Positions 1 through 32,928 of a DNA stretch of 64,000 nucleotides are shown piece after piece. The DNA lies in contig CP114120.1 in NCBI GenBank assembly GCA_029959195.1, forward strand, positions 806,001 to 870,000, in the 5' to 3' direction. This stretch comes from Dictyophora rubrovolvata. Lineage: Eukaryota > Basidiomycota > Agaricomycetes > Phallales > Phallaceae. Position 1 is the first letter of the stretch; each line of letters begins with the position of its first letter. The notes under the pieces are model-generated. The model saw only the letters and a program-made list of their open reading frames with translations, was not told the DNA's origin and searched no databases. A program made the translations under genes and the position numbers.

Positions 1-1870
1 GACCAATTTGATGGTAATGGATGTCTCATTCGCGTTGCTGTATTTTCGCCCAATGGAGACTGGCTTGCCTTTTATCGGGACTCTCGAACTGAGGTGTACA
101 TATGGAATACTCGGAAACATACACAGGATGTCGTATTGCGCAATTCTCAAGGGTATCTGGCACTTACTGACAGCTACATTGCCTTTGAAAAAGACGACAC
201 CTCAATAGAGATCCGGGATGTACGGTCGAACACTAAAGTCGCTGAAATTCAACACGATTCTTATGTCAACTGCTTCCAGTTTTCCCCCGATAATCAATAT
301 ATCCTTTCTGCCTCCCACAATGTGTACTCAATTTGGAGCGTGTCTACAGGGGAATTAATCAGTCGATCCGATGTAGACAACATCATCCATTGTCTAACGT
401 TCTCACACGATTCCAAATCAGTTGCGTTGGGCACATCCGATGGTACAATAAATGTTCGAAAATGGGATAAATCTGTGGAACTGGATGACTCGCATGGGGT
501 TGAAAATGGGAGCGTAAATGCAATTTGGCTACGGGGTGTATATCTTATTCTTCAGTATGTGACGTCCCTTGGTCGCGGTTACCTCCAAATTTCAGATACT
601 ACAACAACAAATACAATTGTTCTTGAAGTCGAACTTATAACCCCTGGACCTGTCAGAGTTTTCCCTGACGAGGAAAACGCGCGTGTGGCATATATCACCA
701 GTCGTGGACTCTGTCTCTGGAACGAAAAAGAAGGCGAAATTGTTGTAGACGAACCAAGGAATTCAATCACCGCGCTCGGATGTTCAGACAAATATCTTAT
801 CTCTGGGGACATGAAGGGAATCGTTAAGATATGGGATAGTTGCACCCGCAGCTTGATTGGTGGTCCAATCGCCGTTCCGGAGTGGGTAAGAATTCTTCTC
901 GTCACCACAACGGGTACCCGCTTTGTTGTTGTTTATGGTGATGAAATGGAAATTCGAGAGTGCGGATCGGGTGGTATAGTAGGAGGACCGTTTACCTCCG
1001 AACCATCTTCGTTTCGCCCGGTTGCTTTTTCTGCCAACGAGACACATGTTATATGCATGTCAAATAATAGTGTCGATATCTTAGATGCATTAACGGGAGC
1101 AAGTGTGGAGTCAATTCCATTCTCATGGTTTGGTTCTGAATGGCAACTTTCTCTGAATGGGAAATATTTGACATGGATAGACAATGATGAAATGAAACTG
1201 CTCGACGCGGACACTGAAACATTGCTCAACGGTCCATCGTTTATTCAACCCGTCAGAAAGTCATGGTTTTCCAATGATTCGAAATCAATCATAACAGCGT
1301 CGAGTGCGGATACTTCGGGGAACACCGCATCTTTAGATATCTGGGACATCCAAATCGAAAAAACAATTATCGGGACAATTCGGTACCCGTTCAAACCGGA
1401 GGACATAAATACCCTAGCTCTGAGCAATAGATGTCTTGTTGATTCAATTGATCACTCTTCGCAATGTTTCATCTGGGACTTGGATGTATATGAGATGATG
1501 TCTACTCTGTACAACCCTCCATTCGCCGTTGATTGTCTCGACATTGAGGGGTAAGTTTAGTATTACTTGTATTAAGTATGGTTCACTTAAAGAAACACTC
1601 AGAAAACTGGCACCCAACAAGACGGAGATATTGGATTATGCATTAACGGCCTGGAAAAAAGCTTCGCTTTCCGCTTTCGCTAAGATGGATAACGGATGGG
1701 TTTTGGGTTTGCAGGGTGAGCTTTTGTTTTGGGTTCCAGAAAAGAGAAGAGCGGAATTCTGGTATCCATGCGTGATGCATGTACCGCATCGACATGTTAC
1801 CAAACTTAATTTCGAGAATTTTGTGCATGGTACTAGTTGGACAGAATGTAGAAAATGCACTAGTGTGTAG
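1..1870 (+). CDS. C-terminal WD40 part of a NACHT-WD40 (NLR-like) protein, cut by the window edge
   Basis: The reading frame is open from base 1 to 1550. A 52-base intron (GT at 1551, AG at 1601-1602) joins it to a last exon 1603-1870 ending in TAG; the visible part is 605 residues. Repeated WD-type blades are seen, with words such as VYIWNT, NVYSIWSVSTG, LCLWNE, IIKIWDS-like and LDIWDI. It aligns end to end with the minus-strand gene at 19.06-24.43 kb, which carries C2 and NACHT domains, so the missing 5' part outside the window probably encodes these. Fungal STAND proteins of this build are candidate intracellular sensors, with the WD40 propeller as ligand-binding end; that role is family inference. 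No internal stop is seen here, unlike the second copy. Confidence 0.85.
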
Positions 1871-4716
1871 CCTCCGAAGATGATCTTAGGCATGTTTGTA
1901 CAATTTTTCCGGTCTCGAGTTTGCGTTTGGTGAGACTTGTCCAGGAACAAAGATCCGTGCGAAATTATGAGTCTAAGATTCATTTATATATGCATAAACA
2001 TCAAGGATTTTCAAAACGAATGAGACAGTCGACTAACTTTGACAAATATGTCCTGCGTCCCTCAGAGCGCGCGCACGCACCAGCGTCAACACATAGTATA
2101 GTCTTCAAGCGGTTTCAGTTGAAGATTTCATGATTACAGCGGATGAACAGGAATGGAAGGTTATTTCAAGACTTAGCATTCATTGATTAAATTTGTATCT
2201 TACATGCACATCCCATATAGTACATCTGGGGATTGGTTTTAAATTTGAGCGGTACAAGACCACGTACACACCAAGTACACATACCCATAAATATAAGCTA
2301 TATAAGTACACATTGTCAGCCCATCGGAATGACGTCAACACTCGGCACATTCGAAGAGAAGAACGGTGTGTCTCCATCGGAACGCATTGTATGATGCGAG
2401 GTATCCGAGGGGTGAGGGTTGTCCCCTCAGATACAGATGCATTCGTCCTTGACCAACTTCGTGGTAACGAAAGCCTTAGGACGACGTGCGTATCCACCCT
2501 GCTTTGGTTTGATATCTGAGGCAATTGGAAGCGAGAGGCGATGTAAGTTTTGGCTCTTTCGTCAACAGTCCACGTTACACTGTCTCACTGAGACAGGCAC
2601 GCTGACCGTAGCGCGCGTATTCAGAACGAGGACGAAATACGTCATATTGGTACCGATAGGAAGAGAAAACCAGGTCCGCTTTTCAAACTTATGGCACAAC
2701 GAAAGTCAGAGCACGCGACCTTGAACAAGGATATCAGCCAATATCGTCTCCACCAGGCATCGTTCAAAAGCCCATGACAAATCCCTACTGACAGAGTCCC
2801 AGACCAAATTTACGTTGTGTGGTTTGAGACCGAGTGATCGTATGTAGTGATAGTTCGCGGTGACATCTGCGGCCAGGAGATGATAAGTGATAGGGAACGT
2901 ACGAGTTGGGAGCTTGGTGTTTCTCTCTCGATTCAGTTAATGGTGGTACCGTATAACAAGGTGAATGTTCATCGTGGACTTGGGTTGATGCCCTTGAGAG
3001 CACCATGTATCTCATCTAAACCGGGTATAGCCATTCATCCGAATGCATGCTGAGGCGGTTTGCACATATATGTATACGGCATAAAAAAGTCTGTATACGA
3101 ATGAGTATCTCTGACATGAATAGGTACAAAAAAGAACAAACCCGTAATATACCGCTGTGTTTGAATACGTTACTAGTTCAAAAAAGCACGCGCCCGAATT
3201 ACTGCAAAGAACCGCATGCGACACTTTCTTCTACCGTGTTTGGTATTGAGATTTTGATTCTCGTGCAAAGTATGATAGAGTGAAAGATCCTCTTTGAATA
3301 AGATTAGCAAAAAAAGCATTAGCGGTGAGCTGAACTGAAGGGCAGAGCGGTTACTAACCAGGCTAGCCTCCTGGCAGCGCCAGTCGGCCAATTGTGGTGA
3401 TTGTCATTCCGATGCATTTCGGGGTAATACCAAGTGTAATTCTTGATACCTAACGCAAAAAATTGTGTTAGTTGGAGAGTTTTTTCGTCGCAAATTGTCC
3501 TGAATTTTTTTAGTGCCTTGGTGGGGGTGGGATCGGAAGAAAACATAGCAGGATTACGTAAACTCATTCACGGAGTTTGCCAGTTCGCGTCAAAGTTTTA
3601 CAGTGACAACGACTAACGTTAACGTCGACACTCGACTCAATGAGACCCATGCAGACTCTCAGAAGAGGATTGACCCTTCAGTTGGCCAGATTAACCTGTT
3701 GACATCACGGCTTTCTTTATCTATTTTGCTCTTCAGATTCCCGCTGTAAGCGGCAACTGAGCAATCGAAGCCTGGGCCCTGTAAGTCTGTTGTTTCGACG
3801 AATTCGTGAAGAGGACGCCCAAACGACTATCACCTGTATCACAACATAACGAAATACCTGTACACGGGAATTCTCGACGATGAGGAAAAGGCATACAAGT
3901 CATCCAGCTTACTCTCTCCATGTTCGTCCAACTTTTTGTTATTATTATGCGCAATTTGACGTATTCTGTTCTTTTAAAAGCATTTAACATTGTAAAACCC
4001 TCCAAACCCGCCCCTGTTGGTGTTATCCCATCCCGGTAAATTGGAGAATTTGATCCAATTCGTTATCTGCGGGTAATCGGTCATATTGTCCCCACAAAGA
4101 TTCAACTTTTTGGTCGAAATGCCCAAGTTCGTCCCAGCGACCAATGACGATCCGCCACCTGTCAGGACATTATGATTCAGCAAATTAAATCATCAACCAA
4201 TACTTATGTGCCAACGGGCGAATGTCACTTTCTGATGTTGAAGGTTTAACGGTATCTTCCATCAATTTTTCGAATTTGCTCAATAATACTTAAAAGGAAC
4301 ACAAGGCTAAACTTTAAATCTCGTTTTGAAATCACCGTCGGTGAAATCCTTACTAGTGCGACGTATAGTCTTTTCTTCGATAGAAGTCTCATTGCTAAAT
4401 ACGCTGCTACATATTCATACTTTTAAAATTCTTCTTTACCTGTGACAATCCGAGCACGGCAACACGGAACTCAACCACAAAATTGGTACCGCCTAAGTAC
4501 TACAACTTGAAATGCAAATCTGGGTATAATACTCCACATGTGATAATTTTTATTGGCCTACAAAAATAAATGGTCTAAACTCTAGGTTTGATTACCCCGA
4601 CTCTCGTGACCATCGGGAGGTCTTCTCACCGGCCCCGGCTGGTCCGACCCTGTTGCAATACATATAATCTTTGACTAGACCTGTTTGAAATGATCTTTTC
4701 TTTACATACCCCGTAA
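1871..4716. other. left arm of the inverted duplication: spacer with decayed sequence, eL38 relic and amylase upstream region
   Basis: No intact gene was found. About 1871-2960 matches, with many differences, the reverse complement of about 17,960-18,950. Shared blocks include the stretch around 2215-2300 (GGTACAAGACCACGTACACA) and the one near 2850-2880 (GTGACATCTGC). On the minus strand, short protein-like pieces such as LLAADVTAN sit where the right copy has FIAAADVTAR; the original gene was not identified. About 3760-4000 is an eL38 relic, described separately. From about 4000 to 4716 no homology was seen; this is probably the amylase upstream region. Confidence 0.6.
3760..3995 (+). pseudogene. 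RPL38: decayed copy of ribosomal protein eL38 (copy A)
   Basis: The stretch CGACGATGAGGAAAAGGC (about 3878-3895), preceded by AATACCTGTACACG and followed by TCTCCATGTTCGTCCAACTTT and GCATTTAACATTGTAA, matches base by base the better preserved minus-strand eL38 copy at 16.60-17.06 kb. That includes the intron before the last exon. The block encoding the [12 protein letters not shown] core is largely missing and no open frame survives. It lies in the same relative position in the left arm as copy B in the right arm, so both came with the segmental duplication. Identification rests on copy B. Confidence 0.6.
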
Positions 4717-8037
<3,321 letters not shown>

Positions 8038-8537
8038 AACTCGAATGATCAATTAATCAGAATCACTAGTCACTCACGATATTGTTTGAACCTTTTCGAG
8101 TCAAAGTCTAGCCTCAGTCTATTTGTCACTTTTGTTTGTCGGCTTGTTTATTTGTTTCTGCCAAATTTCTTTTTTTCTGCGGAATGCTGTGTAATAATAT
8201 TTTGCCAAGCCGCGGAGCCGTGCGATCAAAGTTGCCTCGGCAAAGCACCGTGTTACAAAGACATGTGACGCGGCGACCCTTGATTAATGCTTGAAAATCG
8301 TAATAAAATGTCGCGCCTGTCCTGCAGGCATAGACACTTGAGTCAAAAGGACCGATTTTAGATGCCGTCGCCCAATTCTTCTTTTTTTTTTGCTTTTGTC
8401 CTTTTTTTTTCAGACCCATAGTGGTGGTCGCTATTCCTCGGCATCAAGGACGTGAGGCGTTACCGCAGTGCCGTGTCTTCTTTTATTCATAGCTACAACT
8501 ACACACTTTTCCGTCTCGTTTTGCGCTTAACCTCAAA
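8038..8537. other. intergenic region between amylase and DUF3433 genes
   Basis: About 500 bases with T-rich tracts (8170-8180, 8383-8412). It presumably holds the amylase 3' end and the upstream region of the next gene. No protein-like frame or repeat was seen. Confidence 0.6.
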
Positions 8538-11466
8538 ATGAAGGCTTTTCGACACCTTCATCTGTCTTCAATACTGTCTCTGGATGATAAAAGATCATCT
8601 ATCGCATCCCCTTCCATGTCTTCTTACGTCGACATTCCAGGAGGAAAAAAGAAGAAGAAGAGCAAGGTCTGTTATCATTATAATCTCCAGTTGTAATTTG
8701 CATTTTGCCTCAACTTTCTATAGACTCCAGCAGCTCTTAACACATGGCGATTCGCGACTGCCATTTGTCTGATGTTTTCGTTAGTTATCGCCCTCGAGGT
8801 GGCTTTAGCAATATCCGTCAAACAAGAAGGCAAGTCCTATTCCGCCCATTCCTTCCGCGTCTTAAAACGTTCTCTAACGTCTTGTGGCCTATTTGCTCAG
8901 GGTTTCCAACCGGGAATATGACTACGGGGAGAGTCCAGTTCTATAGCGTACGTCTCATTTGATTGGTCAACCACAGGGAACGGATCACCAAAGTTACGGG
9001 CTGCTCTATAGTCGTTTATTCCAACACTTTCAATCACCGGCCTGGCATATTATTGGAGAAGTTTGGACAGAGCGTATAGGAGAATGCAGGTGAGTATCCA
9101 TTTTCAGTGTCCTTTAAACGGGCCTTAACCTTAACCACCGACCCTTAGCCCTACATTAATATGTCACAAGGGCCAACGACAGCCCAGGACAGCGTACTAC
9201 TCGACCTGGAACACATGAGGTTCGTCCCCATCGCGCATGTTCTCCGTCTCCTAGCTTGCTGACCTCTAAAATTAGTTTTGTGAAATTGTCCAAAGTCTCA
9301 CTTGAGACAGGACGCTACGTAGTTTTATTCTCAACAATTCTCGCATTTCTGGGTATATTCTACCACCCCTTGGCCAGTTCATTTTTCTTTGTGAAGAGTG
9401 TTCCATTTGTTTTTCCTGGTGAGTTGGTAATTTGATCCGCCATTCAAAAGTTTTTTTTTGCTAAATCGGGTCACAAAGCCGACGCCGATGTCCAGAGTGT
9501 GGCCACTTTGGGATTAAACCCTCTCTTTAAAGATTTATCCTCTTTCGTGGCCGCAGCCGGATTTTCAGAAGCTGCAGCATATTATGGTCTGGACGAACCC
9601 CCGTTTGTCAATGGTTCTTGGGCAGTAGCTCGATTCCAGGTCAGTTTCACTGTCCCCTTTACCCCCTTCCCTCAGGATAGCTTATCCTTGCATTGATTGT
9701 TTAGTACCCTTCTGATATCTCAGTAAACTCTACGGTAACTGTAAACACGACCGCTATAGAGTCCCAGCTAAACTGCTCTTCCATTCCCGTGGATGTTATC
9801 CTAAACTCACCACAACCCCTGAATACCACCCTCCAAGTGGACATTGCTCCAGGATGTTCTAGATCAGTATTAATTGATCCAGCTTCGTCACCCAACCAGT
9901 ATGGAGTTCAGGCGATAACGAATTGTACGACTAGTGGTGGCGATGCAGGCACCGTTTCTCCTGAATTTGCTCCCGTTTTGTTTTGGTTTTATACTATCGG
10001 AAGTGGCACAGGCCAGGTCTTGGCCAGGTCTGTGTTCTGTGACATTTCGTTGAGAACTGCTGCTGTGGAAGTCACAGTGGATGGGACAACGGGACTTTTG
10101 ACACAGTTGAACGAGATTGGAGACGCTGCTTCCAATGGCAATAACGTTACTAGTGGTCCTTTTTCCGGACACGCTTTTAACGGGTAGAAAAAATTTCTCC
10201 TATCCTCTTCTCCAGTTCGTTCTCTCATATTGTTGAACAGTATAGCTTTTGATTCTCAAAATCCTGCTGCTTCGTTCAACCTCAGCAACCCTTTTATTGC
10301 TGCGAGAGCACTGGCCGTCCAATCACAAATACCCGGTGCGATTTTCAGGTGCGATTTTTATGTAACCTTGTTATCTGTTAGATATTGACCCTAAAGATTT
10401 AGGCTCGCCACTGATGCAGTATTGAATCCTGGGGGATTTTCAGACCAGGGGTTGTTATCCATCACAGAGAGCATCTATGTATGCCTTTCTTTCATGCACT
10501 ATAGAAAAATAATCGATCTAATCATTATTCAGTCGCAATATCTCAGTGTCATTGCCCTGGGAAATTATTTTATACCTGCCTCGGAGAAACTGGTCGCCAA
10601 TGTGACGCTCTGGCCTAATCGGCTTTTCATGAAGTTCGTTCATTTTTGCTTTGATTACTGACTTTATTTCTGCCACTGACGCTAATTGTTTTTTTTTATC
10701 AAGTCATATGACGGTCCACATTCTTTCGTGTCTGCTCATTGTCGTTGCGTTCACTGAGATAGTGCTATACTATTTCTACCGTAAACGAAGCCGAAACATC
10801 AACCTGGGTACTCGCCCGGGATTCATCGCTCACTGCATGAGTATCTTGCCATATGCCAATACCAGCCTGATAACACCAACAGACGATAGACAGTCTTTAA
10901 AACGGAAATTGGACAAGTTGCAATTCATGTTGGACGACGATGGGTATATTGTCGCATTACCGACCGGTGAACTGGATGCAGTGAAAAGATCGAGGGGGGC
11001 TTCGTGGCTTTCTCAGCAGAAGTCGATGCTCAAGTTTCATATGGAACCATACGAGGATATATCCCCGTTCTCTCCTAAATCTGATGATGATGATTGGCTC
11101 AGTGTATCGTTGAAATCACCTTATTCGACGCCTTTGTCTCCTGCGAGTTCTGAAAACACGGGAGGAGTATCACATTCAAGGAAAGGATCTTCAGGTGGGC
11201 GTAGTGTGAGGTTCTCGTCTAAAGTTCCAAGTCCGTTAAGTCGATCAACCTTCGATCGCGAGAGCTCGATCACTCCTCGTGCAAGGGGTTCGGTGGAGTC
11301 GACTGCGAGCTCTGGGGAAAGTCGGAACCAGCGGTCGTTACCGGTCCCGCCTCCTGGTCTATCAAATCCTCCGACTTTTATAAATCCGTTTTTGCAGGCA
11401 GAAGACACCTCGAGCTCAAGCTCGACGAGTTCGCATGATAGTGGGAACGCAAGAGATATTGGATAA
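8538..11466 (+). CDS. DUF3433-type multi-pass membrane protein
   Basis: Twelve exons give 753 residues: 8538-8666, 8724-8829, 8901-8947, 9012-9089, 9149-9219, 9276-9418, 9479-9639, 9705-10183, 10241-10348, 10403-10478, 10533-10633, 10704-11466. A short basic cytosolic N-terminus (GGKKKKKSK) precedes a membrane helix (AICLMFSLVIALEVALAI). Then comes the DUF3433-like block around LAYYWRSLDRAYRRMQPY, a second helix (VVLFSTILAFLGIFY), and a large extracytosolic region with many N-x-S/T sites. A final helix (LSCLLIVVAFTEIVLYYFY) is followed by a Ser-rich cytosolic tail. The family is fungal and has no settled biochemical role. Intron 2 starts with GC (AG|GCAAGT). It sits about 250 bases upstream of SLD5 on the same strand. 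Confidence 0.85.
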
Positions 11467-11713
11467 TATCTACAGGGCCATTATTATAATTTATCGTAAA
11501 TTTACAATTGGTTTAGTTTTATTTTGGGATTGTCGTAGTTATACATCATTGTATATACCCCTTGTGTAAAGTAGTGTAACATAATTTTATTAACGACGAA
11601 ATGCTTTATATCCTCAAACAGTAAACTGTAATTGGAAATTGTAGCTGGGAATGAGATTTATTTTTTCAGCGCGTTATAGCGCTGCGTGACAACACGTTCC
11701 AATCCTACCTCCG

Positions 11714-12754
11714 ATGCTTCCTCGTGCCAAACGACCTCGTACGGAAAGTACGAGCCTGGCCGATAACTCCGATGATGATCTTTTCGATGTCAGACCTTTA
11801 CAGCTACTTTCTTTCATGACAGAAGACATTTCTGCCGGAGGAAGTTCTTCTAATGCCCGAAGAGGACCTGCTGCAGTTGACCAAAGACCCATAGAGCCTA
11901 TGGTCATAGAAGACGATCAACAAGATACGCACGTCATTCAACTTATGAGACATTGGATGAACGAACGTCTTTCTCCGGAGTTACTTCAACACTGTGGGGA
12001 TCTGTTGCAGACTTTATTGGATAGAATTCGAGATCAGGCATGGGCTCCGGACGAAATGTGAAATACTCTTTTTTTGAGATTCTTATATTAACAAGGCTAC
12101 GCTGGTTTCGCAATTGCGAGGTGATCCGGATGCGAATGAAGATGAGCATTATCAGATTATTCTTGTGCAGACGGAAATGGAGCGGATTCGGTTTGTTATA
12201 CGATCGTATACCCGGGCACGTATAGCTAAGGTTTTTGATATCGTCTTTCTCTTTATTGATTCTCATGGGACTGAGCTTTGAAGCAGATTGAGAAGTATGC
12301 AAAGTTTATTCTTCAAAATCTGGATATGCAAAGACGGCTTTCGATGATGGAACTCAAATACCTGCAAATGTACGGTACTTCTCCCTGAAGTTTTTCCGTC
12401 CTTGCATCGTTCATGTTTCGTTGCAGGTACGAACGGCTGTTGGAGAACCACTTCAGCACAACTGTTCTTAAAGATTTGCCGCCCTGGATCCGTGTTGAAA
12501 GAGAAGGATCGAATTGGCCTGGTCCAAGTACAGGTAAGTATCACCTTTATATCTTATGCCTAAACTCACTTATTCTCACCTTAGTTTCCAAACCAAATGG
12601 GGATACACCCGTATTTGTTCGTGCACTCCAAAACTGCGATCATATTTTATTGCCTGAGTAAGTTCTACGAGTCCAAATTTGCGCGCGGCTTTCCTTGCTG
12701 ATTGGGAGCGTTTTGCAAGTGGTCGCCCGATTGATCTCAAAAAAGGCTCCATAA
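11714..12754 (+). CDS. SLD5: GINS complex subunit SLD5
   Basis: Six exons give 255 residues: 11714-12037, 12096-12230, 12287-12369, 12427-12533, 12585-12657, 12709-12754. SLD5 is one of four GINS subunits; with Cdc45 and Mcm2-7 it forms the replicative helicase. Diagnostic stretches are HVIQLMRHWMNERLSPELL, RGDPDANEDEHYQIILVQTE, RFVIRSYTRARI, IEKYAKFILQ and the C-terminal B domain with VFVRAL. Length fits the family. Only a GC-AG first intron (donor CAG|GCATGG at 12038) keeps the frame and the expected spacing before LRGDPDA; reading through meets a stop after 115 codons. That donor departs from the usual GCAAGT, so the first junction should be checked with transcripts. Confidence 0.9.
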
Positions 12755-13023
12755 GTTTATTGCGTTATTCGTCCATCGTGAACCATGTACTTCGAGGGGA
12801 AATGGAGCTTGTATAGAAATGGACTTTCTTTTGTAGAATATTACCATGTATCGCTATATAATGGCTTTTTGGACATCGCTACTACGTACAACGAAGCGCA
12901 CCTGATTACGTCATCTACATCGCATACTCAGTTGTGGCTATCAGCCCCATAACACATTCTTCCTCCCGCCCCCCCAATAATCTTTTCCACGTTTCTGAAA
13001 CAATACATCGACTAAACGGCATC

Positions 13024-13882
13024 ATGAAGATATTTGCATTGTCTGTTTTCCTTGCACCAGCCAGCGGCGCAGTTACTTTGCTTTCATCTGCCTCCGATCT
13101 CTCATCATTCTCGTTTTATCAGCGCCCTAGCCTCAGAGAATTCCTAATATTCTTTACGAAAACTGTGGTTGAGCGGACAAAGTCGGGGAATAGACAAAGT
13201 GTACAAGAGAATAGTTATGTTGCCCATATTTATAATCGAGGTGGTCCTGAGCAATTAGCTGGTTCGTCGGATGTCAACTTTTCTTATTGATAGCACGTAT
13301 TGGGAGTATTGATATCTTCTTTTCTTTTTATAAGGTGTCATCGTTACTGATGGAGAATATCCTACTCGGCCTGCGTTCTCGCTTTTGACGAAAATCCTCG
13401 AGGAGTTCAGTACATCTGTCCCTCAATCATCTTATTCTACTCCATCTTCAATTTCTTTCCCCCAGGTACGATAATTTATCCTCGCCTCTCATCCTTGTCT
13501 GATCCCTCATGTGTGGTGCAGATCGAAACTTATCTTTCAAAATATCAAGATCCCAAGCAGGCCGACACCATCATGCGAGTGCAACAAGAACTAGATGAGA
13601 CAAAGATTGTCTTGGTGAGAGCTTTTTCGTTCTTCTCAACTTAGTTAGCACTGATTGCGTTTTTCTCACTTTTGTGACATTCAATCAGCACAAAACTATC
13701 GAGTCCGTTTTGGAACGTGGTGAGAAATTGGACAACCTAGTGGAACGTTCAACGGCCTTGAGCGCTCAAAGCAAGATGTTTTATAAGACAGCGAAAAGCG
13801 TATGCTAATTTCTTTTTCTTGTCTTGTTCCTGACCCAATTGACTCATTCATCTAATAGCAAAACAGCTGCTGTAACATATGA
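13024..13882 (+). CDS. YKT6: R-SNARE YKT6
   Basis: Five exons give 198 residues: 13024-13261, 13335-13465, 13522-13614, 13689-13799, 13859-13882. The N-terminal longin domain starts [10 protein letters not shown] and contains [10 protein letters not shown]. The SNARE motif follows, with the central arginine context [19 protein letters not shown]. The protein ends SCCNI, placing a cysteine pair at the C-terminus: farnesylation of the CaaX cysteine and palmitoylation of its neighbour are how YKT6 proteins reach membranes. It works in fusion at Golgi, vacuole and endosome. Length matches yeast and animal YKT6 (about 200). The next gene, site-2 protease, is convergent, with 148 bases between the stops. 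Confidence 0.95.
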
Positions 13883-14030
13883 TTCCGGAGTTGCCTTCCC
13901 CGTCTTTGGCTTAATGATTACTTACCATCAGTTGTAAAGTATTTATACTCCATGTTAAGTAGATATCCTTGAATTTCATTACGTGGAAGTTTTAATCTAA
14001 ACATGCAAATGCGAGATGGCTATGAGGTTT

Positions 14031-16043
14031 TCATAAAGGAAGGAAATTGCTGATGGCAAGACTAGATGCTAAAATAATGGTAACTCTTTCAAAAAAGGTG
14101 AGAATGCTTTTGGCACGGTAGGTCCGAGATAGACTGCCGGATTCCAGATCGAAGGATTCTGCCGTTCGCAATTTAAGTGAGATTAAATCTGCGATGGCGA
14201 GAAATAGTTCTCCTCCGTCCAATGCTCGTATTGGAAGTAAATTCAAAAAGAAGAGAGAAAGCGATACGGTGTTTATGTATCTAGTTTGGAGATTAAGTTT
14301 GTGATAGATGATTTGGTTTACGAATGACTCACTCCATTAATAAATTCAACCAAAAGGGCAAAGAACTTGGGAGAAAAAAAAGACTGGGCTGGAAATTATC
14401 CACCATAACTAATGAATTGTGTCAGAATGCGAACACAATTCTGATCTAAATGCATACTTTGATCCCAAACTTCTTGTTTTGGACCATTCCATACCACCGT
14501 GCGAGATCTCTCTTCACTAGGATCCTTAAAAATAATCCGCACTAACGATGTCGATGGATGAGGCCGGATACATAAATTATCGGTCGGACAGTCTACGTTG
14601 GAATCACATCGAGGCCACGAGGGGTCTTCCATCATGACAAGGGGATCTATACAACCATTTTCTGTCTCGTCGGAAGTGGTGAAACATGTTCCATTTCCGC
14701 TGGCCAGTGTGGACTCAAGATAACAGCAACTTCCAAAACGAACTAAGATTTATTTATTATAGCCCTTGTAAATGATAAACGAAAGCGTATAGGAGGCCAT
14801 CTCACCGTGAAGCATAGAGGATTGAAGACACCAGCCTGTTGTTTCGTGGTGACCGAGTAAGATATCTGACCAAGAATCTATGGTTGTAGTTTCGAAGTAG
14901 CTTGTTATGTGTGAATCATCTATTTGGGTGATTATTGCAGCACGGGGTATATGCTGGGATAGTGGGGAGTCCTACAATTTCCGAGCATTTAAAAAAAGTA
15001 GTTTGTGAATTCACATATTAAACTAATACCTCTCCGAATCCTATCACTTTCACACCATCTTCCAAGGGTTTATAGCCAACGTAAGGCAGAAGATGTTCTT
15101 TTAAACGAAATGAGGACAGCAAGAATAAGATGGCGATCGTTATAAAGTTGTGAAAAACGCCGGATGAAGCAACGCGAATACGGGAGGCAGGGTTCTGTTC
15201 CTTTAGGGGAACGAGCTCTACAAATGCCGCTGGAATGACAGCAAAAAGATTATATCCCCATCTGGTAAGTGGAATATTCTCCCTGAAAGTATTTTTTTTC
15301 AAGTGTCATAATATATAACACAATGGGAAACTTACAATGAAGCTGTGACGGCGTGTCCGTATTCGTGTATTCCGGTGCAAATTAGTAAAGCAATGACTAT
15401 GGGATAAACATGTGAAAGAGGAAGATTGAAGCCGGGAATCTTCAAAAATTGGAATGTAAATAAAAACGTCCGACTAACGCGTAATGGTACCTACAAGTAG
15501 TCGTGGGTTTAAGATTTGGGTATCGTCAGCGGGACGAGGGGTAAAAGCTGCCAATCCTCGTTTAACAAAAGTTGATGATGGTGATGTAGCCGAACTTCTA
15601 GGTACGAAAAAGCGATAATATCGTCCGAACAGAAGAACCGCGGACCACCAAAGCGCCCCAACGGTAAATATTTGACCAGCGAAGGCTATGAGAGAACCCA
15701 AGTTGTAGAACGCTGTTAAGAGTCTTGAATTTGGGTGACTATTTCTTGAAAAACGATCTCGGCCCGTGGAATCGCTCGAGGTGCTGGTTAACGTCGCTTC
15801 CGTTTTTTTACCCTTTTCAACATACAAATTGGTCCAAAATCGAATTAAAAGGAATCCAGCAAGTTCGATGCTGATAATAGAAGTGCCGATTTTGGCGTTC
15901 CACAAGGAGCCTTTTATTGGTGCGTCTTCGGGTCTTGCTGTAACAGGTAGAAAAGAAAGGCCATCCCGCCTCAGTTTGGTGTGTTTATAGTAAATATAGA
16001 GCCAGAATACGACCACAGATCCGCAGAGCAGTAAGAAAGACAT
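14031..16043 (-). CDS. site-2 protease (M50 intramembrane metalloprotease)
   Basis: Seven exons on the minus strand give 560 residues: 16043-15495, 15439-15336, 15282-15030, 14971-14806, 14742-14458, 14408-14333, 14280-14031. Several hydrophobic helices are present. The zinc-binding HEYGH lies near residue 208 in a membrane helix and the third zinc ligand is in NLLPIRALDGG (Asp near 499), the arrangement of S2P/MBTPS2. A cysteine-containing luminal insert (CDSNVDCPTDNLC) lies between the two halves. S2P cuts membrane-anchored transcription factors such as SREBP homologues after a first luminal cut, so a role in sterol/hypoxia response is likely by family. The frame is continuous only if the 49-base intron 14409-14457 is removed. 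No defect was seen. Confidence 0.93.
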
Positions 16044-16602
16044 GGGTTTGGCTGGAAAACAGTATCATACCATTGACTCCCGAGAGTTTTTAATTTTTGT
16101 GATTACATCAGCAATTTCTGAGGGCGAGTCTGGGCAACTTTGGGGCAAGTACGCAGAATACTAAATGAGCACCACACCGCAGAAAACGTGGTGATAAGAA
16201 GTTTATTTCCTTTCAAAAATTGCCTTTACGTTGTACATTTCGACGCCCGTAGTTAACATTTTCTGAACGGACTATCTAATATGTTGTCGAAACTTTGAAG
16301 CAGAATGTCGGACCCCATTCGATTAAATGACATTTGTCACTGGATTTTTGTTTCACGGACGTAGCAGCTCATCGACATCGGCAGTTGAGGCAAATACGTA
16401 GGGGAGCAATATGCACGTGGGGGGGTCAAGTTTCGTCTAAGCGGTCTTGCCAGTGATAATGCTGTTTTGTCGTATATTCTGCATGTACGCATAACATTAA
16501 TTGAATGATGCATACGATAAGGTAAGTATAGAGGGCGCGACTCTCGCCCTCATAAAAACACCGGACAGCCTTTAAAACACCTACGCCTACGCCCACAGGT
16601 GC
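16044..16602. other. intergenic region upstream of site-2 protease
   Basis: About 560 bases between the start of the site-2 protease gene and the end of the eL38 relic. It should contain the protease promoter. A G run lies at 16,418-16,425. No coding signal or repeat was recognised. Confidence 0.5.
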
Positions 16603-17056
16603 TTATTCTTTGGCAGGTTTAGCGGCCTTCTTGGAAATTGTTACAATGTTCAGTGCTTAAGAAAGAGCAGCATGAGTCAAATTGCACACAATAATAACAA
16701 GAGATGTAACGAACATGGAGACAAGCTGGACGCCAACTTGTCCGCCTTTTCCTCATCGTCGAGGACCAATGTGTACAGGTACCGTGAGCATCGGACCTTC
16801 AGTTTCGTTCTGATTTTTTGTGATCCTAAGGATAGTCATTTGGGTGTCTTCTTCACCCGTACTGCTGGCAAGAAAAAAACAGTTTAGTTTTTTGTCTAAA
16901 CAGTTTTGTCTACAATAGCTACAGTTTCCACTGACATCGGGCATCTGGATAAGCACAAACCTCGAGAAAATGTTTGATGTCTGTGAGCACTTTTGGCTAA
17001 ATGAACAAGTCCTATGAGTTCAGTTTTCTTCGGACAGTTCAGACGGGTCTCACCAT
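16603..17056 (-). pseudogene. RPL38: broken, intron-bearing copy of ribosomal protein eL38 (copy B)
   Basis: Read on the minus strand, a first exon consists only of ATG (17056-17054) followed at once by GTGAGA, a layout common in ribosomal protein genes. Next comes a second exon with TDIKHFLE, then fragments with [29 protein letters not shown] and ADKLASSL, and a last exon ending KKAAKPAKE and TAA at 16605-16603. These match eL38. The intron after HFLE has shrunk to about 16 bases, the following ARRKD block is out of frame, and the donor after KKTPK is missing, so no full protein can be made. Because introns are kept, this is a DNA-level duplicate and not a retrocopy. A functional eL38 gene must exist elsewhere. 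Confidence 0.75.
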
Positions 17057-19055
17057 GATGAGTGCTGAGTGTAAGGATGCGGATGTAAACTATAATTTAC
17101 GTAATCCTGCTATGCTTTCCGGTTCCACGTTCGGCAAGTCACTGGATTCAAACTATTTACCTTTGCAGTAAAACTATCATTCAAACTGGGAATTTACACT
17201 CTGATCGAAAAATTCGGTAATATCGCAAGCGCGTTGGAACCAAAATTATTATGATTGGATCGTTAATTCATTCAGCGCAAGTTCAGCAACGAGCTTCTGG
17301 TAGGTGACTGTTATTCGTTTTGGTTTGCTGCTAATGCATTTTGTTTTTCAGAAAATGATCTGTGAATCTGCGCAATTAATTTGAGCAAACGCTGTACTCA
17401 GATGGCAACGAGAACATTTCATTTGAATCGTAAAAGATGATAACGCATGCGCTGGTTCGCTATAATTCAGGCGCACCCTTTTCTGAACCAGTGACGCATC
17501 AAAGTGCAGTGATATATTAGGTTTTTTTTTTTCATTTCAATACTTATCTCCTTTTCGAAAATACTCAGCGTATGCATTTTCGTCAGAGATCGTCCGGCTG
17601 TACCCACTCCTCTCCATCCCGGTGCCCATATCAGCTGCACCCTTTTCCGCTGCGCTTTGTGAAAGGTTTCTGTCTGGCGCCAGGTTGGTTCCACAAGGTG
17701 TTGCCCTGATATGCCCTTTGTCATGTCGCTTGGATCGCCGCTTGGTTGTCCAATTTTATGTACACTTGGTTCGAGGTTCGGATCCCCTTTACGATATGCT
17801 CCGGTGCATAACATGTGAGTTTAGTCATTGTCCAGGAAGTTATAACATAGCGCCACGAATGCGAGCTCAAAAAAGCTTTACTCGAAGCTTAGCTCAGAGT
17901 TGCATTTAGCTTCAAAAGACAGGGCTTCAAATCGAGATGGGATTTCCGACTCTCAGTTGCCGACTTCCTATTGGCATGGTTCCGCCTACTCGGCCAAAGT
18001 ATCTGCTCCCGTAACTAAAGCAATTTCGGAACACCCCAAGACTGTAACTCGCACATTTTCTTCCAACATGTATAATCATCTTAGTTTCATCGCTGCTGCA
18101 GATGTCACAGCGAGGACTCAATTTCAAACCTCGGCACGTGGTTTTGGTCGAATACTCTACTGGTGGTGACTTGACATTGTCTTTTGGATGATCTCCTTAT
18201 TCCAGACTGCGACACGTTCGAGGAACGAGCCTGATTCTTCTCTTCTCTTCGCATCAGTACCAGTATGATGTGCTCCAACCCCGCTTCTAATACGTGCGTT
18301 CCGGTCAGCGTACCTACCTCGGTGTAACGTGGACTATTGACGAAGAAGCTAAAGCCTACATTGCCTCGATACCTCAGAGATTGCTACCATGGAGGTATGA
18401 ATGCACTTGTACCTGGGGACTCGACGATCCTCGGCCCGGATACCTCACGTGATACTGTACCTTCCGGTGAAAGACACACCGCCCTTCTCTTTGAATCCGT
18501 CTAGTGTCGACGTCATATCGAAAGGTTGACAATGTGTATATAGCTTATGTTTATGGGTATGTGTACTTAATGTGTACGTGGTCTTGTACCGCCCAAATTT
18601 AAAACGATCCCCAGATGTACTATATGGTATGTGCCTGTAAGATACAAATTTATTTAGTGATTTTGAGGTCTTGAAATTCCATTCCATTCCTCGTTCATCT
18701 GCTGTAATTACGGAACCTTCGACTGAAGACTATACTATGTGTTGACGCTAGTTGTGCGCGCTCTGACCTGGGCGCAGGACACGTTTTTCAAAATTGTTTA
18801 ATTGTTCGACTGTCTCGTTCGGTTTGAAGATCCTTTATTTGCGTGCAGATATGAATGGATTTCGCACAGATTTTTGTTCCCGAATATGTCTCACCAAACA
18901 CAAACTCGAAGCTAGAATAATAATTCTACTTAACGTTCTATTCGGACGCTACATACTAGTGCATTTTCTACATTCTGTCCAACTAGTACCATGCACAAAA
19001 TTCTCGAATTAAGTTTGGTAACATTTCGACGCGGTACATGCATCACACATGGATA
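17057..19055. other. right arm of the inverted duplication: decayed sequence between eL38 relic and WD40 gene
   Basis: About 17,960-18,950 is the counterpart of 1871-2960. On the plus strand, protein-like text is visible at 17,990-18,150 (KVSAPVTKAISEHP, YNHLSFIAAADVTARTQF) and 18,300-18,390 (TYLGVTWTIDEEAKAYIAS), without a continuous frame. It looks like a decayed gene that ran opposite to the NACHT gene; I cannot name the family. From 17,057 to 17,600 nothing was recognised. Confidence 0.5.
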
Positions 19056-22000
19056 CTAAAATCCCCTTCTTCTCTTCTTTGGAACCCAAAACAAAAGCTC
19101 ACCCTGCAAACCCGAAATCCATCCGCTATCCACCTCAGCGAAAGCGGGAAGTGAAGCTTTTTTCCAGGCCGTTAATGCGTAATCCAACATCTCCGTCTTG
19201 TTGGATGCCAGTTTTCTGAGAGTTTTTTTAAGCGAACCGTATTAAATATAATAAGTAATACTAAACTTACTCCTCAATATCGGCGGCGAGTGGGGGAGAG
19301 TTGTACAGAGTAGACATCATCTCATATGTATCCAAATCCCAGACAGAACATTGCGAAGAGTATTTAATTAAACCTACCAGATGTCTATTGCTCAGAGCTA
19401 AGGTATTTATGTCCTCCGGGTTGAACGGGTACCGAATTGTCTTAATGATCGTGTTTTCGGACTGTATGTCCCAGATATCTAAAGATGCGGTGTTCCCTGA
19501 AGTATCATCACTAGACGCTGTTATGATTAGGTTTGAATCGTTAGAAAACCATGACTTCTTGACAGGTTGAATCAACGATGGACCGGTGAGCAATGTTTTG
19601 GTGTCTGCGTTGAAGAGTTTCATTTTGTCGCTGTCAATCCATGTCAGATACTTCCCATTGAGGGATATTTGCCTTTCAGGATTACTACGAGGTGGAAATG
19701 AAATCAAGTTCACCCTTGCTCCCGTTGATGAATCCAATGTATCGACACCATTCTGTGACATGCATATAATATGTGTCTCGTTGGCAGAAAAAGAAACCGG
19801 GGCATAGAGGGTGTGTGGATCGAACGTAAATACCCCTACTTTTTCACCCGATTCGCATTCTCGAACTTCCGCGTCATCGCCGTAAATAACACGGAAATTG
19901 CCATAAACAACAGCGAAGTGGGTACCCGTTGCGACGAGAAGAGTTCTTACCGGCTGTGAAACGGCAATTGGACCACGAATCAAGTCGCGGTTACAGCTAT
20001 CCCATATCTTAATGATTCCTTTATTGTCGCCAGAAATAAAATATTCGTCCGAACATCCCAGCGCGGTGATTGAATCGTCTGATCCGTCTACAATGATCTC
20101 GCCTTCTTTTTCGTTCCAGAGACACAGTCCACGACTGGTGACGTATGCCACACGTACATTTTCCTCGTCAGGGAAAACTCCAATAGGTCTGGATTCCACA
20201 AGCTCGACTTCAAGAACAATCGTATTCGTTGTCGTAATATCCGAAATTTAGAGAATACGTCTATCGAGAATCGTCTCATACTGAAGAATGAGATATGTAC
20301 CCCGTAGCCAAATTTCGTCCACTTGCCTAATTTCCTTGCTATGCAGATGACTCAGATCTATAGATTTATCCCATTGTCGAACATTTATTGTACCATCGGA
20401 TGTGCCCAACGCAACTGATTTGGAATCGTGTGAGAACCCCAGACGTTGGATGAACTCGTCTACAAAGGATCGACTGGTTAATTCCCCTGTAGACACGCTC
20501 CAAATTGAGTACACGTTGTTGGAGGAAGAAATGATGTATTGATTATCAGGGGAAAAGTGGAAACAGTCCAAACGCGTTTCATGCTGAATTTCGGTGACTT
20601 TGATGTTTGCCCGTACATCCCTGATCTCTATTGATTTCTCTTTTCTTAAGGCAATGTAGCTGTCGGTAAGTGCCATATCGCTCACAGAACCGCAGAATAC
20701 GACATGCCATGTTCGTACCTGAGTATTCCATATGTACACCTCACGTTCATAGACCCATATGTCTGGGACCCATATGTCAGAGTCCAATGTGGACGGCTTA
20801 GAGTTCCGTATTAACGCCAAAAAAGTGTCCCATAAGGGCGGCCTAAAGCACCGATAAATGGCAAGCCAGTCCCCATTGGGTGAAAATACAGCAGTGGGAA
20901 CGGAAAGCCCATCGCTACAAAATCGTTTAACAATCTGATGATTTCTCCGGCCGAATAGGAGTGTTCCCATCTTCGTGCACCAGGTTATAAAGCACCCGTC
21001 CGAAGACGATCACCTCCTCATATACCTCCATGCTCGTTTCATTCGTCCTCGTATTCCATACCAGGATATCACCGTCGCAAAAACAGCAATAGGCCAATTC
21101 TCCGTCGCAAGAATATACGATGTCACAGACTCCCCACGTATGATAGGGATCTTTTCCAATTTTAGAACGAATGTCCCTCAGGAGTCGCTCCCCCGTTACA
21201 TAGTTCCATACCCAAAATTCACCTTCGTTAGAGCCAGCTGCGATGTATCTGCCTTTCGGCGAGAAGGTAAGCGATCTTGGAGTCCCAAGAGCTTTCTGCG
21301 TGATACCCATTTTGCGCGATGAACCGACTGGTTGGCCAAGATCGAACGTGAAAAGACCAGGATACGTTTCAAGGTATTTTTTTGATACGAATGAACCACG
21401 AGGGGTAAAAGGAAGGGCCGAGAGATAAAGATGCGGCATGCTCTCCATCATTGCCTCTCCAAAGTCATACCCAAATTCCCATGCATTTATCGCATCGGCC
21501 GCCAAGTCACCGTCTGCATCCTACAACCTGATTCAGTTATTAATATGCGACAGGCAAAGAATCACCCACATTACACCAGTTTGCTATTTCTCGCATTGCC
21601 ACGCAACCTTGATCAACCGCTGTTAACAAACTGAGCACTTCAAAAAAATACAGCAGGTTGTAGTTCATCAATCCTCGAATTTCACGAACAAGTTCCTCGC
21701 TATGACCCGAGGACTGGAGATGAAAGGCCCAGAAACGACATGAATACGACAAATGCGACGGAATAGCTTTCTCGACGCGTGAAATAAAATCGGGCACCTC
21801 GCGATTGCGCAGCTGCGATGTCTCGAGGTGACAAATATTGTAGCATAGCATTCGATTCATCAATTTGAGACAAGCGAGTGTCATGAGATTTTGGTTTGAG
21901 GTGTCGATGTAGTACTCGTTGGTTTCTTTAGTGGCGAAAAAATCGAATAATGAGGTGTGAAGAGGTCGCACTGTAGTAGACAAGTCATGAACGCCAACGA

Positions 22001-24427
22001 AGAGAGAGCTGAAGGGAGAGAGTATGGACTTGATATCTTCAATACCGTCAAAGATATTTTGTAATGTATTTATTGAGAGGGGTTCCCGCGCCGTTATGAT
22101 CGCACCTACAATCGTCTTAAAGTCTTCGATAAAGTCAGCGTCCTTGGATTTCGACTGGCTTGAAATGATTTGGCGATATAATCCATATAATGACAAGGAC
22201 GAGCTTGACACGCAAGTTTTCCACTTCTTCGCTACTAGTTTTGAACGTGGAATGGTGGGATCAATGAATTGGCAAACAGTCTGAGCCCATTGGAAAAGAC
22301 CCTCAGCGCGCTTGGCTAGTATACTGCGCCAATCTCCATCTATCTTGTCCAGGTCTGGCGATATTGGAGCAAGACAACTCGAGACATAGGCTTGAATATC
22401 GCAACGTGTTTCCTCTGCATCAATATCCCCCATCCGTTTACACAGAACATTAGATTTTTGACATTGAAGCTCAATGTCCTGTTCCGGACGAGTGGTAACA
22501 ATGATACGATAATTCTTCGGAAGCGAGGAGCATCTGTCGAGGAGTAATCCTAAAATTTCCCTGCGTTCGTTACGGTTCCCACTTTCATCCAACGCATCCA
22601 CAACGATAACTACCGATCCAATAGTTGCCACGTTTTCCGAAGGCTTAACAATAAGTTCTTCAAATTGCGTTTCGGCATCCTTCTTCTTCCGAACCGCAGA
22701 CTTTTCAATAATGCTCACTAATTCTTTTCGCCACAGGACATCGCTGTCAGCCAAGTCGCGGGATATGGTGCTAAAAAGATAATTGCGTCGATCTGTGTAA
22801 CTCCTGTTAAAACAGAACATGGACCCGAGTCGATTTTGTTTCTGGAATATTCCAGCGATGGTGTGTGCCACTGCGCACTTTCCTGCTCCCGCTTGTCCAC
22901 TCAGGACGAGGATTTGTGGCGATGCGTCATCGTTGATCCATTCTAATATTTCATTGATCAACGTTTGGCGAGTCCCTGGTAAACATCGTTTCTTAGGGAA
23001 AAATCCAGCGTCAGGGTCGTAGGGCATATCACCAAGCAGTGTTAAATCATCTTGTGAAATGAGGTCATGGATAATTGATAATAATATATAACTTTGATGA
23101 TAAACGCACTTAGATCACTGATTTTCTCGGACACACGAAGTGTTACAACGCTGGTTTCAAGATTGACCGAATCCGTCATAACCTTCATAAGGTGGTCTAA
23201 TTTGTCGTTGAAATCTTGGATCTTGCCATCCATACTCCCGCTGACTCCTTTCACCATGTTCTTGACTAGAGCTTGAAAGTCAGACTTGATCTCACAATCA
23301 TAACCTTGAGAGAAACACAACCTATATTTTCCGTACTGTACTCTCGTATAAAATAGGCGCATTCAATGGTTTGCCGAACCAGTACGGAAAGCGTCTTGGA
23401 TTGGGTTGTAGTAAGCTCGCGCAGCCGTTTCGCATCCGTAATGTAGTCGTAAGTGTCCTTCAGTTTTAAGCATAACTGTTTGACTTTGTCATCACGGTTT
23501 TTTTGCGTTATAATAACCTGAAAATAATGATCATATCTGATTTTATCGAGTTCAAATGATAAAAAGAGAGTGGTATTTACCTTTGGAATAACAGACAGAA
23601 TACTCCACGCTATCTTCACATATGGACTTATCTAAAGAAAATTTAGGGAAAGATAAAGGTATGTTTTGCACGGGACTACCTCAGAAACATCATCTATTAC
23701 TTTCATAAAAACCTGAAACTGGAGGAGAAACGATGTCCAGGTCTCATCTTGATCGTTGCAGACTTGCACCACAGAGGTGATAAAGTTGGAAGCCTCGGCT
23801 GAAACTTCCAGATTCGGTAGGTTTACTAATGCTGCCGATGCTTCTTCTACCACTTCCGAAACGACGTCAGATAACTTCTCAATGTTGAATGTTAATTGAC
23901 ATTTTCCAGCGATGTCTAATTTGCATGGACCTGCAATCATGTAAGTGCTAAACTATTAACGATAACAATGTTTTCAATAACTTGACTAACCAGAACTACT
24001 TTGTATCTTGAGGAGGTCAATGGCCCGGCGTTTGCACGAGCCAATTGTATTGTCTGGAGTAACTCGATGGGCACGGACAACGGTAAAAGTCAGGAGAGTG
24101 TCGTCAGTAGGTTTGCCGTTGCTACATTGTCATTTGAGGTGACATCAAAACAGATCGTGGTCTCTGACATACAAATTGAAAGAGTCGTTCCAAATCACGC
24201 AATCAGGATCACCTTTCCTAAATGCAGTTTTTGGGCTCGTTTTCGCATCGCTGCCGTACTTGATCACGATTTGAAATTTAGGGTCGTTTTTCCATGAGGA
24301 TGGAGGATTAAGCAAGCGAACGTCTTTATGAATCAGAGGGATGAGATAAAACGAAACTTGAATAAGAAACTCTAAAATTACCAGATATTTTTATACCTTC
24401 TCGCGAATAGCTCGTCGGAACGGCCAT
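19056..24427 (-). pseudogene. C2-NACHT-WD40 (NLR-like) gene, probably a pseudogene
   Basis: Minus-strand exons: 24427-24382, 24323-23991, 23930-23680, 23631-23581, 23517-23322, 23271-23110, 23050-21570, 21520-20996, 20934-19271, 19215-19056. The first two encode a C2-like domain (SSWKNDPKFQIVIKYGS). A helical region of about 200 residues follows, then NACHT (Walker A GQAGAGKC, Walker B VVIVVDALDES, TTRPEQDIEL), then WD40 blades to the C-terminus. Damage: in exon 2 the frame changes after NDSFNLYV and a TGA follows; a TAA at 20250-20248 replaces a Gln codon present in the paralogue at 1-1870; a TAG at 19058-19056 replaces a Trp codon. Walker A ends Gly-Lys-Cys where Ser/Thr is expected. The WD40 region carries about 30 extra residues around 20,760-20,860 relative to the paralogue. 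Some shorter product may still be made. Confidence 0.8.
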
Positions 24428-26262: not shown

Positions 26263-27078
26263 CTGAGTCCTCAGTACTGCAGCAATTTTACGCGACCCTT
26301 ACGGCGAGTTTGCAAAACGGTACAAGCACGAGACCCGGTTTGCCAATGGAACTCGTCATCTACATCATAAGATTGGCCGACTGCGTACTGCTATCCATGT
26401 ACACGCGGGTGTCAACGAAGAGTTTCGTCGTTCATTCGAGTAACTCAGGGCTGCAATCGCAGACTTGTTTACTGACGAATCCTGTGTCCAAAAGGATGGT
26501 GTCTCATCTTGCCAGGATGCGTCTCACAACCAATTCACATGACCAAGGCTGGTGTAATGATCCGAGCAGCGGGACTTGGACTTGGTTTGAGATCTCCTTG
26601 GTTGAACGTGACGAGAAAGGTGGTTTTCAGGTCAAAAAGATAAGGAGAAGGAATACCAGCGATGCACAAGCAGGTAAAATCCAAAGAAACATATCTTTCC
26701 CGTACCGCTACCACTCACGAGTTTCTTTGCACGACAGGAAATTCAATGTTGCTATCGGATCCTACCCTCGAGAGTCGACATAGGGTTAGACCATTACTCA
26801 GGACAGATGACACCAACGACAGCACGATTAGCAACGACTCAAGGGTACCCGAGTACCGTCCTCTTTCGTGGATATCCCACTATAATCGCCAAGCCTCCTC
26901 TGAATTTACTGTATACGAGGGAATCGAGTTCGGTCCTGATCATGAAATTTGGAGCCATATGTCTGAAGGAGATCGAATTCTTGTTCGAGCGTTTGCGCGA
27001 TACGCTGGATGGACGAATCATGTTGATTGGTCTGTATTGAGATTATGGGAATGGTATGATCCGACGAGTTGTAGTTAA
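26263..27078 (+). CDS. conserved fungal protein of unknown function (5' end unresolved)
   Basis: Two exons are clear: about 26263-26673 and 26738-27078, joined by a 64-base intron (CAG|GTAAAA to GACAG|GAAATT). The product has an N-terminal helix-like segment (LPMELVIYIIRLADC), reminiscent of an F-box-like start. Then come DQGWCNDPSSGTWTWFEISL, VERDEKGGF, FGPDHEIWSHM, GDRILVRAFARYAGW and LRLWEWYDPT, ending in TAA. The Trp-rich core resembles a family I recall only as hypothetical in Agaricomycetes, possibly a lectin-like beta sheet; that is a guess. The first in-frame ATG in the visible exon is at 26346, and an upstream exon probably exists. Confidence 0.65.
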
Positions 27079-31221: not shown

Positions 31222-31377
31222 CAATACGCTATTTGTGTATCAGGTGTATTAACATCCTAACTATTCATTCTTAATAAAAACAGTCAATGACCAAACTCCA
31301 GCACGAATATCAGTGCATTGCCCAAGCGTTGTTATCTTGCTAAAAGCCCCGAATTAGTAATCCGCGTCTATTTCACA

Positions 31378-32750: not shown

Positions 32751-32928
32751 ATTTGTAACATTTTATATTTTATTATTGTGCCTTTGCGTGTACATGTATA
32801 CATAATTTGTTGATCAAGCGGAGTAGGTGCCCGTAAAGCTCCCTTGAGCTTCCCCCCTTTTTGATTACATAACCCGCCACATTGATCGTCCACTACAGCT
32901 AAAGCAGGCCGACGGGGTTCTCATCAAG

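Follow-up and report, generated by a model that had tools for sequence, protein, structure and literature searches.

Inverted NACHT-WD40 units in Dictyophora rubrovolvata belong to an old dispersed family and flank a composite block that includes housekeeping genes

The window analysed here is a stretch of 64,000 nucleotides of the basidiomycete Dictyophora rubrovolvata (G000:C4:806001-870000), in which two units of an NLR-type gene family with NACHT and WD40 domains lie in inverted orientation on either side of a block of other genes. The inverted structure is real, larger and more composite than first described, and involves mostly known kinds of event. It is probably the product of an old dispersed NLR family homogenized by gene conversion, lying beside housekeeping genes that were relocated at the DNA level, possibly via circular DNA. 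The history of one 3.2 kb cassette carrying YKT6 and S2P is the part of the locus most worth following. The sample for all comparisons is a single assembly (28.2 Mb in 11 contigs, with introns and fungal-type genes). Positions given without a contig name are those of the window.

The two arms are seen by self-BLAST of the window as an inverted homology between 86-2444 and 20748-18399 (79.2% over 2411 columns, 2061 bits), followed by the collinear inverted pieces 2535-2667/18367-18243, 3130-3220/17532-17444 and 3855-3995/16781-16641. The original prediction of an inverted duplication with a shared order of WD40 coding end, last intron, last exon and eL38 remnant is borne out by self-BLAST together with direct reading. 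Homology limited to the WD40 coding region had been set beforehand as the result that would speak against it, and is not what was found, the matches extending to the eL38 remnants. The predicted last introns were read directly, with 52 bases at 1551-1602 in the left arm (B) and 55 bases at 19270-19216 in the right arm (C). The spacing from the WD40 stop to the end of the relic is similar, as had been noted, at ~2.1 kb in arm B and ~2.35 kb in arm C, and both remnants match the eL38 gene on contig C9. The size of the arms had been put at ~4 kb; each is in fact ~8 kb, comprising a NACHT-WD40 gene, a non-coding tail and the eL38 remnant, and the left arm begins ~4 kb outside the window. In window numbering the limits are -4055..3995 (B) and 24957..16641 (C), with 12.6 kb between them; they are set by comparison with a further unit, D, while direct B-C matches start at C4:802086/830860. 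The window holds the following parts of the arms:

1..1870, + strand: 3′ part of NLR copy B, with the WD40 exon to 1550, an intron at 1551-1602 and the last exon at 1603-1870; the gene starts at ~C4:802 kb
1871..3544, + strand: non-coding tail of unit B, from alignment to other tails
3545..3997, + strand: old eL38 relic B, 70% identical to the intact gene over 221 columns and elsewhere barely alignable
16091..17113, − strand: young eL38 pseudogene of arm C with its 3′ flank, 80% identical to C9:388144-389155 over 1061 columns
17114..18950, − strand: tail of unit C, from alignment to other tails
18951..24957, − strand: NLR copy C, a pseudogene, with the NACHT exon at 21543-23114

The arms are two members of a dispersed family of five units:

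C4:793203-798556, tail 800222-801785, + strand: unit A, from comparison of whole-gene stretches
C4:801945-809995, + strand: unit B, the left arm, whose 3′ part opens the window
C4:830957-822641, − strand: unit C, the right arm
C4:697473-691539, − strand: unit D, preceded by a truncated tail D′
C9:1260409-1267461, + strand: unit E, a copy on another contig

A and B are arranged in tandem ~9.3 kb apart, and D lies ~105 kb from B. With five units in the family, the arms as a private pair of 4 kb are ruled out. The right-hand WD40 piece, searched as protein against the genome, matched at least 23 places, five of which, including the query itself, are 68-100% identical.

The WD40 exon forms a single open frame in A, B, D and E (723-738 amino acids), that of B having 723 amino acids without stops. 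In copy C a frame break between 21009 and 20930 and an in-frame stop at 20250-20248 leave it in three pieces, and the last exon carries an additional in-frame stop at 19058-19056. Copy C is a pseudogene. The expectation that NLR-like genes flank the block on both sides holds for the presence of homologous units, and fails for the state of the right-hand copy. The domain scan for NACHT covered the exons of C and E, where NPHP3_N was above cut-off in both (E 4.8e-22 and 1.7e-24 respectively). WD40 (PF00400) was found in four stretches of copy E (E 5.9e-21) and in the window part of copy B (38.4 bits). A scan for an N-terminal effector domain in one upstream piece of copy E gave just NT-C2 below cut-off (E 0.056). 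By the Nei–Gojobori method (NG86) the 10 pairs give a ratio of non-synonymous to synonymous divergence (dN/dS) of 0.13-0.19 for the NACHT exon. For the WD40 exon the ratio is 0.34-0.40 among A, B, D and E (6 pairs); for the 3′ part of that exon, where C is included, it is 0.36-0.56 (10 pairs), with C-D and C-E the highest. The B-C dS is 0.39 in the NACHT exon and 0.42 in the WD40 3′ part, and from a dS of about 0.4 the arms are judged to be old. The private changes of copy C fall on CpA (25/396), CpC (22/309), CpG (22/264) and CpT (17/312), with 110 C>T+G>A against 98 T>C+A>G. Repeat-induced point mutation (RIP) is ruled out as the cause of its inactivation, as there is no C-to-T excess at CpA.

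Copy B has an uneven relationship to the other units. In windows of 300 columns (C4 numbering) it is 99% identical to A near 804.4 kb and 94-97% at 805.9-806.9 kb, 95-97% identical to D at 802.6-803.2 kb, and 93-97% identical to C at 803.5-804.0 and 805.6 kb, reaching 97% at 805.6 kb; the remaining comparisons of B are mostly at 78-92%. The longest identical B-C run is 159 bp, and the NACHT exon is 86-96% identical per 250 columns. Runs of shared sites were assessed for 10 pairs on 1620 polymorphic sites among 5388 gap-free columns, with 2000 column shuffles. For B-C the longest run covers 36 sites (C4:803673-803828), compared with a shuffle maximum of 24. There are A-B runs of 69, 56, 45, 40 and 38 sites (maximum 23) and B-D runs of 46, 40 and 28 sites (maximum 25). 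Near-identical WD repeat units were not found, self-BLAST of the window giving no direct repeat at E 1e-3. The simplest reading of the sequence is that copy B became a mosaic through gene conversion with tandem, inverted and distant paralogues, and the two inverted arms have probably exchanged short tracts of DNA. The mosaic is tract-like, with no single lasting switch of relationship, and so carries no signature of a crossover.

The tails relate the units differently. Over the aligned part, tail B is 85% identical to E, 76% to A, 74% to D′ and 64% to C; A and D′ are 84% identical, and C is only 58-64% identical to the other four. In a sectioned alignment B, C and E all agree at 76-80% over the first 245 bases, and over C4:808100-809348 B-E identity is 85-88% as B-C identity drops from 81% to 61%. 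Since tail B is mostly nearer to E, on another contig, than to C, B and C are not each other's latest relatives there. A decayed gene on the opposite strand had been proposed in the tails, and finds no support. None of ten open reading frame (ORF) pieces scanned (seven in the tails of A, B, C, D′ and E, one between the gene and tail of A, and two elsewhere) matched a Pfam family at cut-off (best E 0.035), the mismatches lack a 3-base periodicity (phases even), and only about a quarter of the indels are multiples of three, so are not frame-keeping. Within tail C, 17617-17788 matches C3:1069168-1069343 at 73%, and none of the other tails in that search.

In both B and C the tail is followed by an eL38 remnant in like order, orientation and spacing. 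A search with PF01781 located eL38 exons at just C9:388274-388553 and in arm C, where the exon scored has one in-frame stop. With a splice model the C9 gene gives an intact protein of 88 residues, and is the sole intact eL38 found. The arm C pseudogene retains intron sequence, and is thus ruled out as a retrocopy. The arrangement suggests, weakly, that the founding NLR adjoined eL38 and that B took a piece of eL38 along.

The block between the arms is also composite. Its features are:

4717..8040, + strand (approximate limits): gene first read as an amylase, with a CBM_20 starch-binding module (E 1e-6)
8540..11466, + strand (approximate limits): gene first read as DUF3433; three pieces tried gave no Pfam match
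11584..12873, + strand: SLD5 gene with flanks, coding model 11714-12816, domains Sld5 and SLD5_C
12874..16090: YKT6-S2P cassette of 3217 bases, without counterpart at the C9 junction 389155/389156
13024..13881, + strand: YKT6, intact, with Longin and Synaptobrevin domains
14031..16043, − strand (approximate splice model): S2P-type M50 protease, alone among its three copies in having no large internal deletion

These five core genes had been taken to be single-copy. This is wrong for three of them, SLD5, YKT6 and S2P, which have copies at 84-95% identity on C9 and/or C6. No second DNA copy was found in the genome for 4600-8200 (the amylase region) or 8300-11583. For the amylase the CBM20 module and the lack of a second DNA copy in that search agree with the prediction; the catalytic domain was not matched in three other exon pieces tried. 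The second SLD5 lies at C9:390454-389156 in reverse orientation, 91-94% identical to 12873-11584 and directly beyond the eL38 3′ flank. In the part read (from residue 65 on) it is open, with its splice sites kept, including a GC donor. The C4 model likewise needs a GC-AG intron (12038-12095), the same intron being kept in the C9 copy.

Contig C9 reads straight through the eL38/SLD5 junction (ATTA|TCCAAA), which on C4 is split by 12874-16090. The same flanks are present on both sides of the C4 cassette, with no target duplication visible, and with the same flanks at its uninterrupted junction C9 therefore serves as an empty-site comparison. On C6 a copy of the cassette lies at C6:463195-460448 with 94-95% identity, lacking window positions 14557-15008 within S2P; by BLAST its homology ends 6 bases beyond one end of the C4 cassette and 13 short of the other. 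The copy at C9:393687-396472 is circularly permuted, running from 13889-16069 and then 12897-13890. It is 84-92% identical (main pieces 84-90%) and lacks about 14109-14606. The permutation opens at 13889-13890, nine bases past the YKT6 stop, with a 2-base overlap and no loss, and the homology stops 21 and 23 bases short of the two ends of the C4 cassette. An element of ~170 bases with inverted ends (ACACGCCCAACTG...CAGTTGGGCGTGT) is located inside the permuted copy at C9:393724-393894.

The coding state of the copies differs. In a protein search with S2P, residues 314-427 were unmatched in C6 and 415-592 in C9, and the C9 copy has four stops in a stretch that is open on C4 (residues 13-131). 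The C6 copy matches YKT6 over residues 1-191 at 80-96%. In C9 the matches are 7-71 at 89%, 79-101 at 74%, 96-159 at 61% and 154-191 at 95%; stops in single C9 rows are not taken to mean that YKT6 is broken there, since the C4 gene shows such stops too at intron crossings.

A history that would connect these observations begins with a NACHT-WD40 unit (gene plus non-coding tail) that was duplicated and dispersed, its copies trading short tracts by conversion in the tandem pair A-B, the inverted pair B-C and the pair B-D, ~105 kb apart. The block between the arms would be built from the eL38-SLD5 pair with its C9 counterpart, and the inserted YKT6-S2P cassette. The 3.2 kb cassette would have been inserted between eL38 and SLD5 on C4, coming from C6 or from a source common to both, probably by DNA-level copying that involved a circular intermediate or equivalent end joining. 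A circle is favoured because of the order in C9 and the nearly matching ends. Redundant copies would then have decayed: eL38 on C4, and S2P on C6 and C9. Ordered by divergence, the NLR duplications would come first (dS about 0.4; relic B 70%), then the copying of eL38-SLD5 between C4 and C9, where identity is 92% in SLD5 non-coding sequence, 88% in the eL38 intron and 87% in the eL38 3′ flank (gaps left out; exon limits approximate), and last the cassette shared by C4 and C6 (94-95%). Ongoing decay at S2P makes the age of the C9 cassette uncertain.

Several points weigh against this history. The direction of transfer in the exchanges would be assigned by parsimony. The other B-C runs (21, 19, 18 and 18 sites) have single-pair p values of 0.001-0.01, uncorrected for 10 pairs, and are no more than suggestive. 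Runs occur also in A-D (17 sites, maximum 16), A-E (20, p 0.0005), A-C (16, p 0.001) and B-E (20, p 0.017), and with runs in A-D and A-E too the exchange partners are not cleanly separable; under p 0.1 none was seen for C-D or C-E, and D-E gave one at 0.063. Directly before the relic, B and C hardly align (67/138 columns). A C9 spacer of 36 bases stands at the expected join of the cassette ends, and 2131 of 5000 shuffles were at least as like the predicted join; being no better than shuffles it does not prove a circle, and tandem duplication plus deletion is a possible means of permuting the order. Gene-sized dispersed copies lie outside the NLR-flanked block, in the control region 25000-40000, so the NLR arms need not cause relocations: 31354-33973 (2.6 kb) has an 87% copy at C6:329197-331717, and 30153-31319 (1.2 kb) a 78% copy at C4:2436618-2437843. 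Lastly, assembly error may contribute.

For the arms, the rival explanations concern inversion. The original prediction was of a polymorphic inversion, in which crossover between the inverted NLR arms leaves the 12.6 kb block segregating in both orientations. The ~8 kb arms are inverted, 12.6 kb apart, and have probably paired, given their significant shared tract; a 24-kb yeast region flanked by 4-kb inverted repeats is reported to flip (PMC9731477). Recombination between the arms could in principle invert the block. However, the yeast arms are described there as almost identical, and near-identical arms, which inversion driven by inverted repeats requires, are not found here, identity being 79% in the WD40-tail segment and 86-96% in the NACHT exon. 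With old arms and no identical run longer than 159 bp a currently flipping inversion is unlikely, and a polymorphic inversion is given little credence. Almost as improbable is a single inversion by staggered breaks that left the inverted NLR-tail-eL38 duplication as its scar and not its cause. This would place a tail and then an eL38 remnant facing inward at similar spacing in B and C, as observed, yet 808100-809348 of tail B (C4 numbering) is nearer E (85-88%) than C (61-81%), the stretch before the relic scarcely aligns, and the several copies need other mechanisms anyway. An assembly chimera is a very improbable source of the mosaic in copy B: the paralogues are similar and near one another, but B has 86 private substitutions, many alternations of tract, and open frames in the WD40 and NACHT exons.

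For the cassette, the C9 order with S2P and YKT6 back to back might be ancestral, the C4 and C6 order arising by a tandem duplication that lost its outer halves, with no circle. A short shared promoter region would then be natural, and the spacer comparison lends no support to joined cassette ends. Independent deletions would not, however, require the C9 homology to reach so close to both C4 ends, and this order of events is regarded as possible and rather doubtful. A Helitron is ruled out on its termini, with the limit that a Rep-helicase transposase was not searched for. Helitron terminal motifs, including a non-canonical fungal type, are given in PMC5148889 (5′-TC and 3′-CTRR, or TCAG...ATTTT), and on the + strand the insert begins CATCG and ends GTTTT; the insertion is Helitron-like in lacking a target duplication, the C9 ATTA|TCC being split cleanly. 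A bolder extension of the circular route, in which the cassette repeatedly excises or is copied as a circle and re-enters at defined ends, moving essential housekeeping genes from chromosome to chromosome, with the NLR arms marking or seeding the landing site, is unlikely. If true, different loci and hence strains would keep different working copies, leading to reciprocal gene loss and hybrid inviability.

The preferred reading, of conversion within a dispersed family beside DNA-level relocation, has parallels in known systems. In the HNWD/NWD family of Podospora anserina (het-d, het-e) NACHT-WD40 paralogues are described as swapping repeats within and between loci, with pseudogenes and a member that a 60 kb inversion apparently divided (PMC1805685). 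The present family is similar in having dispersed NACHT-WD40 paralogues that exchange sequence, and a pseudogene member. What is exchanged in Podospora, by that account, are near-identical WD repeat units, whereas here the WD40 regions of the window show no such internal repeats, the tracts span NACHT and WD40 exons, and pseudogene C has no RIP-type C-to-T bias. NLR clusters are reported to be common in the Sordariales, a cluster being a set of NLRs separated by under 40 kb and eight genes, with conversion and unequal crossing-over proposed (PMC12258605); A, B and C fit this definition, and what differs from the account of those clusters is an explicit tract map for tandem, inverted and distant paralogues in one genome. 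As in the flip/flop inversion of Saccharomyces, a gene block lies between inverted copies of a duplicated gene family; by that account the Saccharomyces arms are almost identical and kept so, whereas the arms here are 79-90% identical on average and known in one orientation (PMC9731477). Human segmental duplications ascribed to circular DNA change order from A-B/C-D to B-A/D-C, with microhomology or short indels at the breakpoints (PMC7450558). The cassette copies are alike in their changed order and in such breakpoints, and differ in that a 3.2 kb housekeeping cassette of two genes is involved and its joined ends are predicted. For a 17 kb segment in wine yeasts, acquired horizontally from Z. 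bailii, spread via extrachromosomal circles has been proposed (PMC3053389). There too one DNA segment occupies several sites in a fungal genome, with little or no breakpoint similarity, but the segment was horizontally acquired and the genes here are resident. No paper describing this locus was found by title or abstract.

Other sequences in the window are also dispersed. Two ORF pieces of 31354-33973 gave no Pfam match, and the control region 25000-40000 has further pieces of 64-74% identity near C6:480-484 kb. A repeat of 1.19 kb at 28886-30072 is 96-98% identical to six near-full places on C5, C6, C7 (two), C8 and C9, with an additional 99% partial match on C1; its longest ORF pieces are 86 and 108 amino acids, and from these features it is probably a non-autonomous mobile element. 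At 42592-42768 a repeat of ~177 bases, resembling a miniature inverted-repeat transposable element, is present at no fewer than 39 places at 90-98% over all 11 contigs (39 of 65 candidates scored). The control region 40001-60000 gave just this short repeat among the matches listed, and is uninformative on genes. Strong negative GC skew (-0.15 to -0.26) extends over 3 kb at 33001-36000. An F-box-like ORF is located at 53268-54401 and a glycosyl hydrolase family 95-type piece at 59240-59923. An Rfam scan of the window gave 0 matches at the gathering threshold.

From one genome, the locus provides a map of where NLR-type paralogues in tandem, inverted and distant positions have probably exchanged sequence, outside near-identical repeat arrays. 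A further lesson is a caution against reading a genome window by gene type, as genes deemed single-copy on that basis turned out to be multi-copy. Intron-containing copies of the housekeeping genes SLD5, YKT6, S2P and eL38 are located on different chromosomes, and which copy has decayed varies from site to site. Should strains differ in the working copies they keep, crosses between them would lose essential genes.

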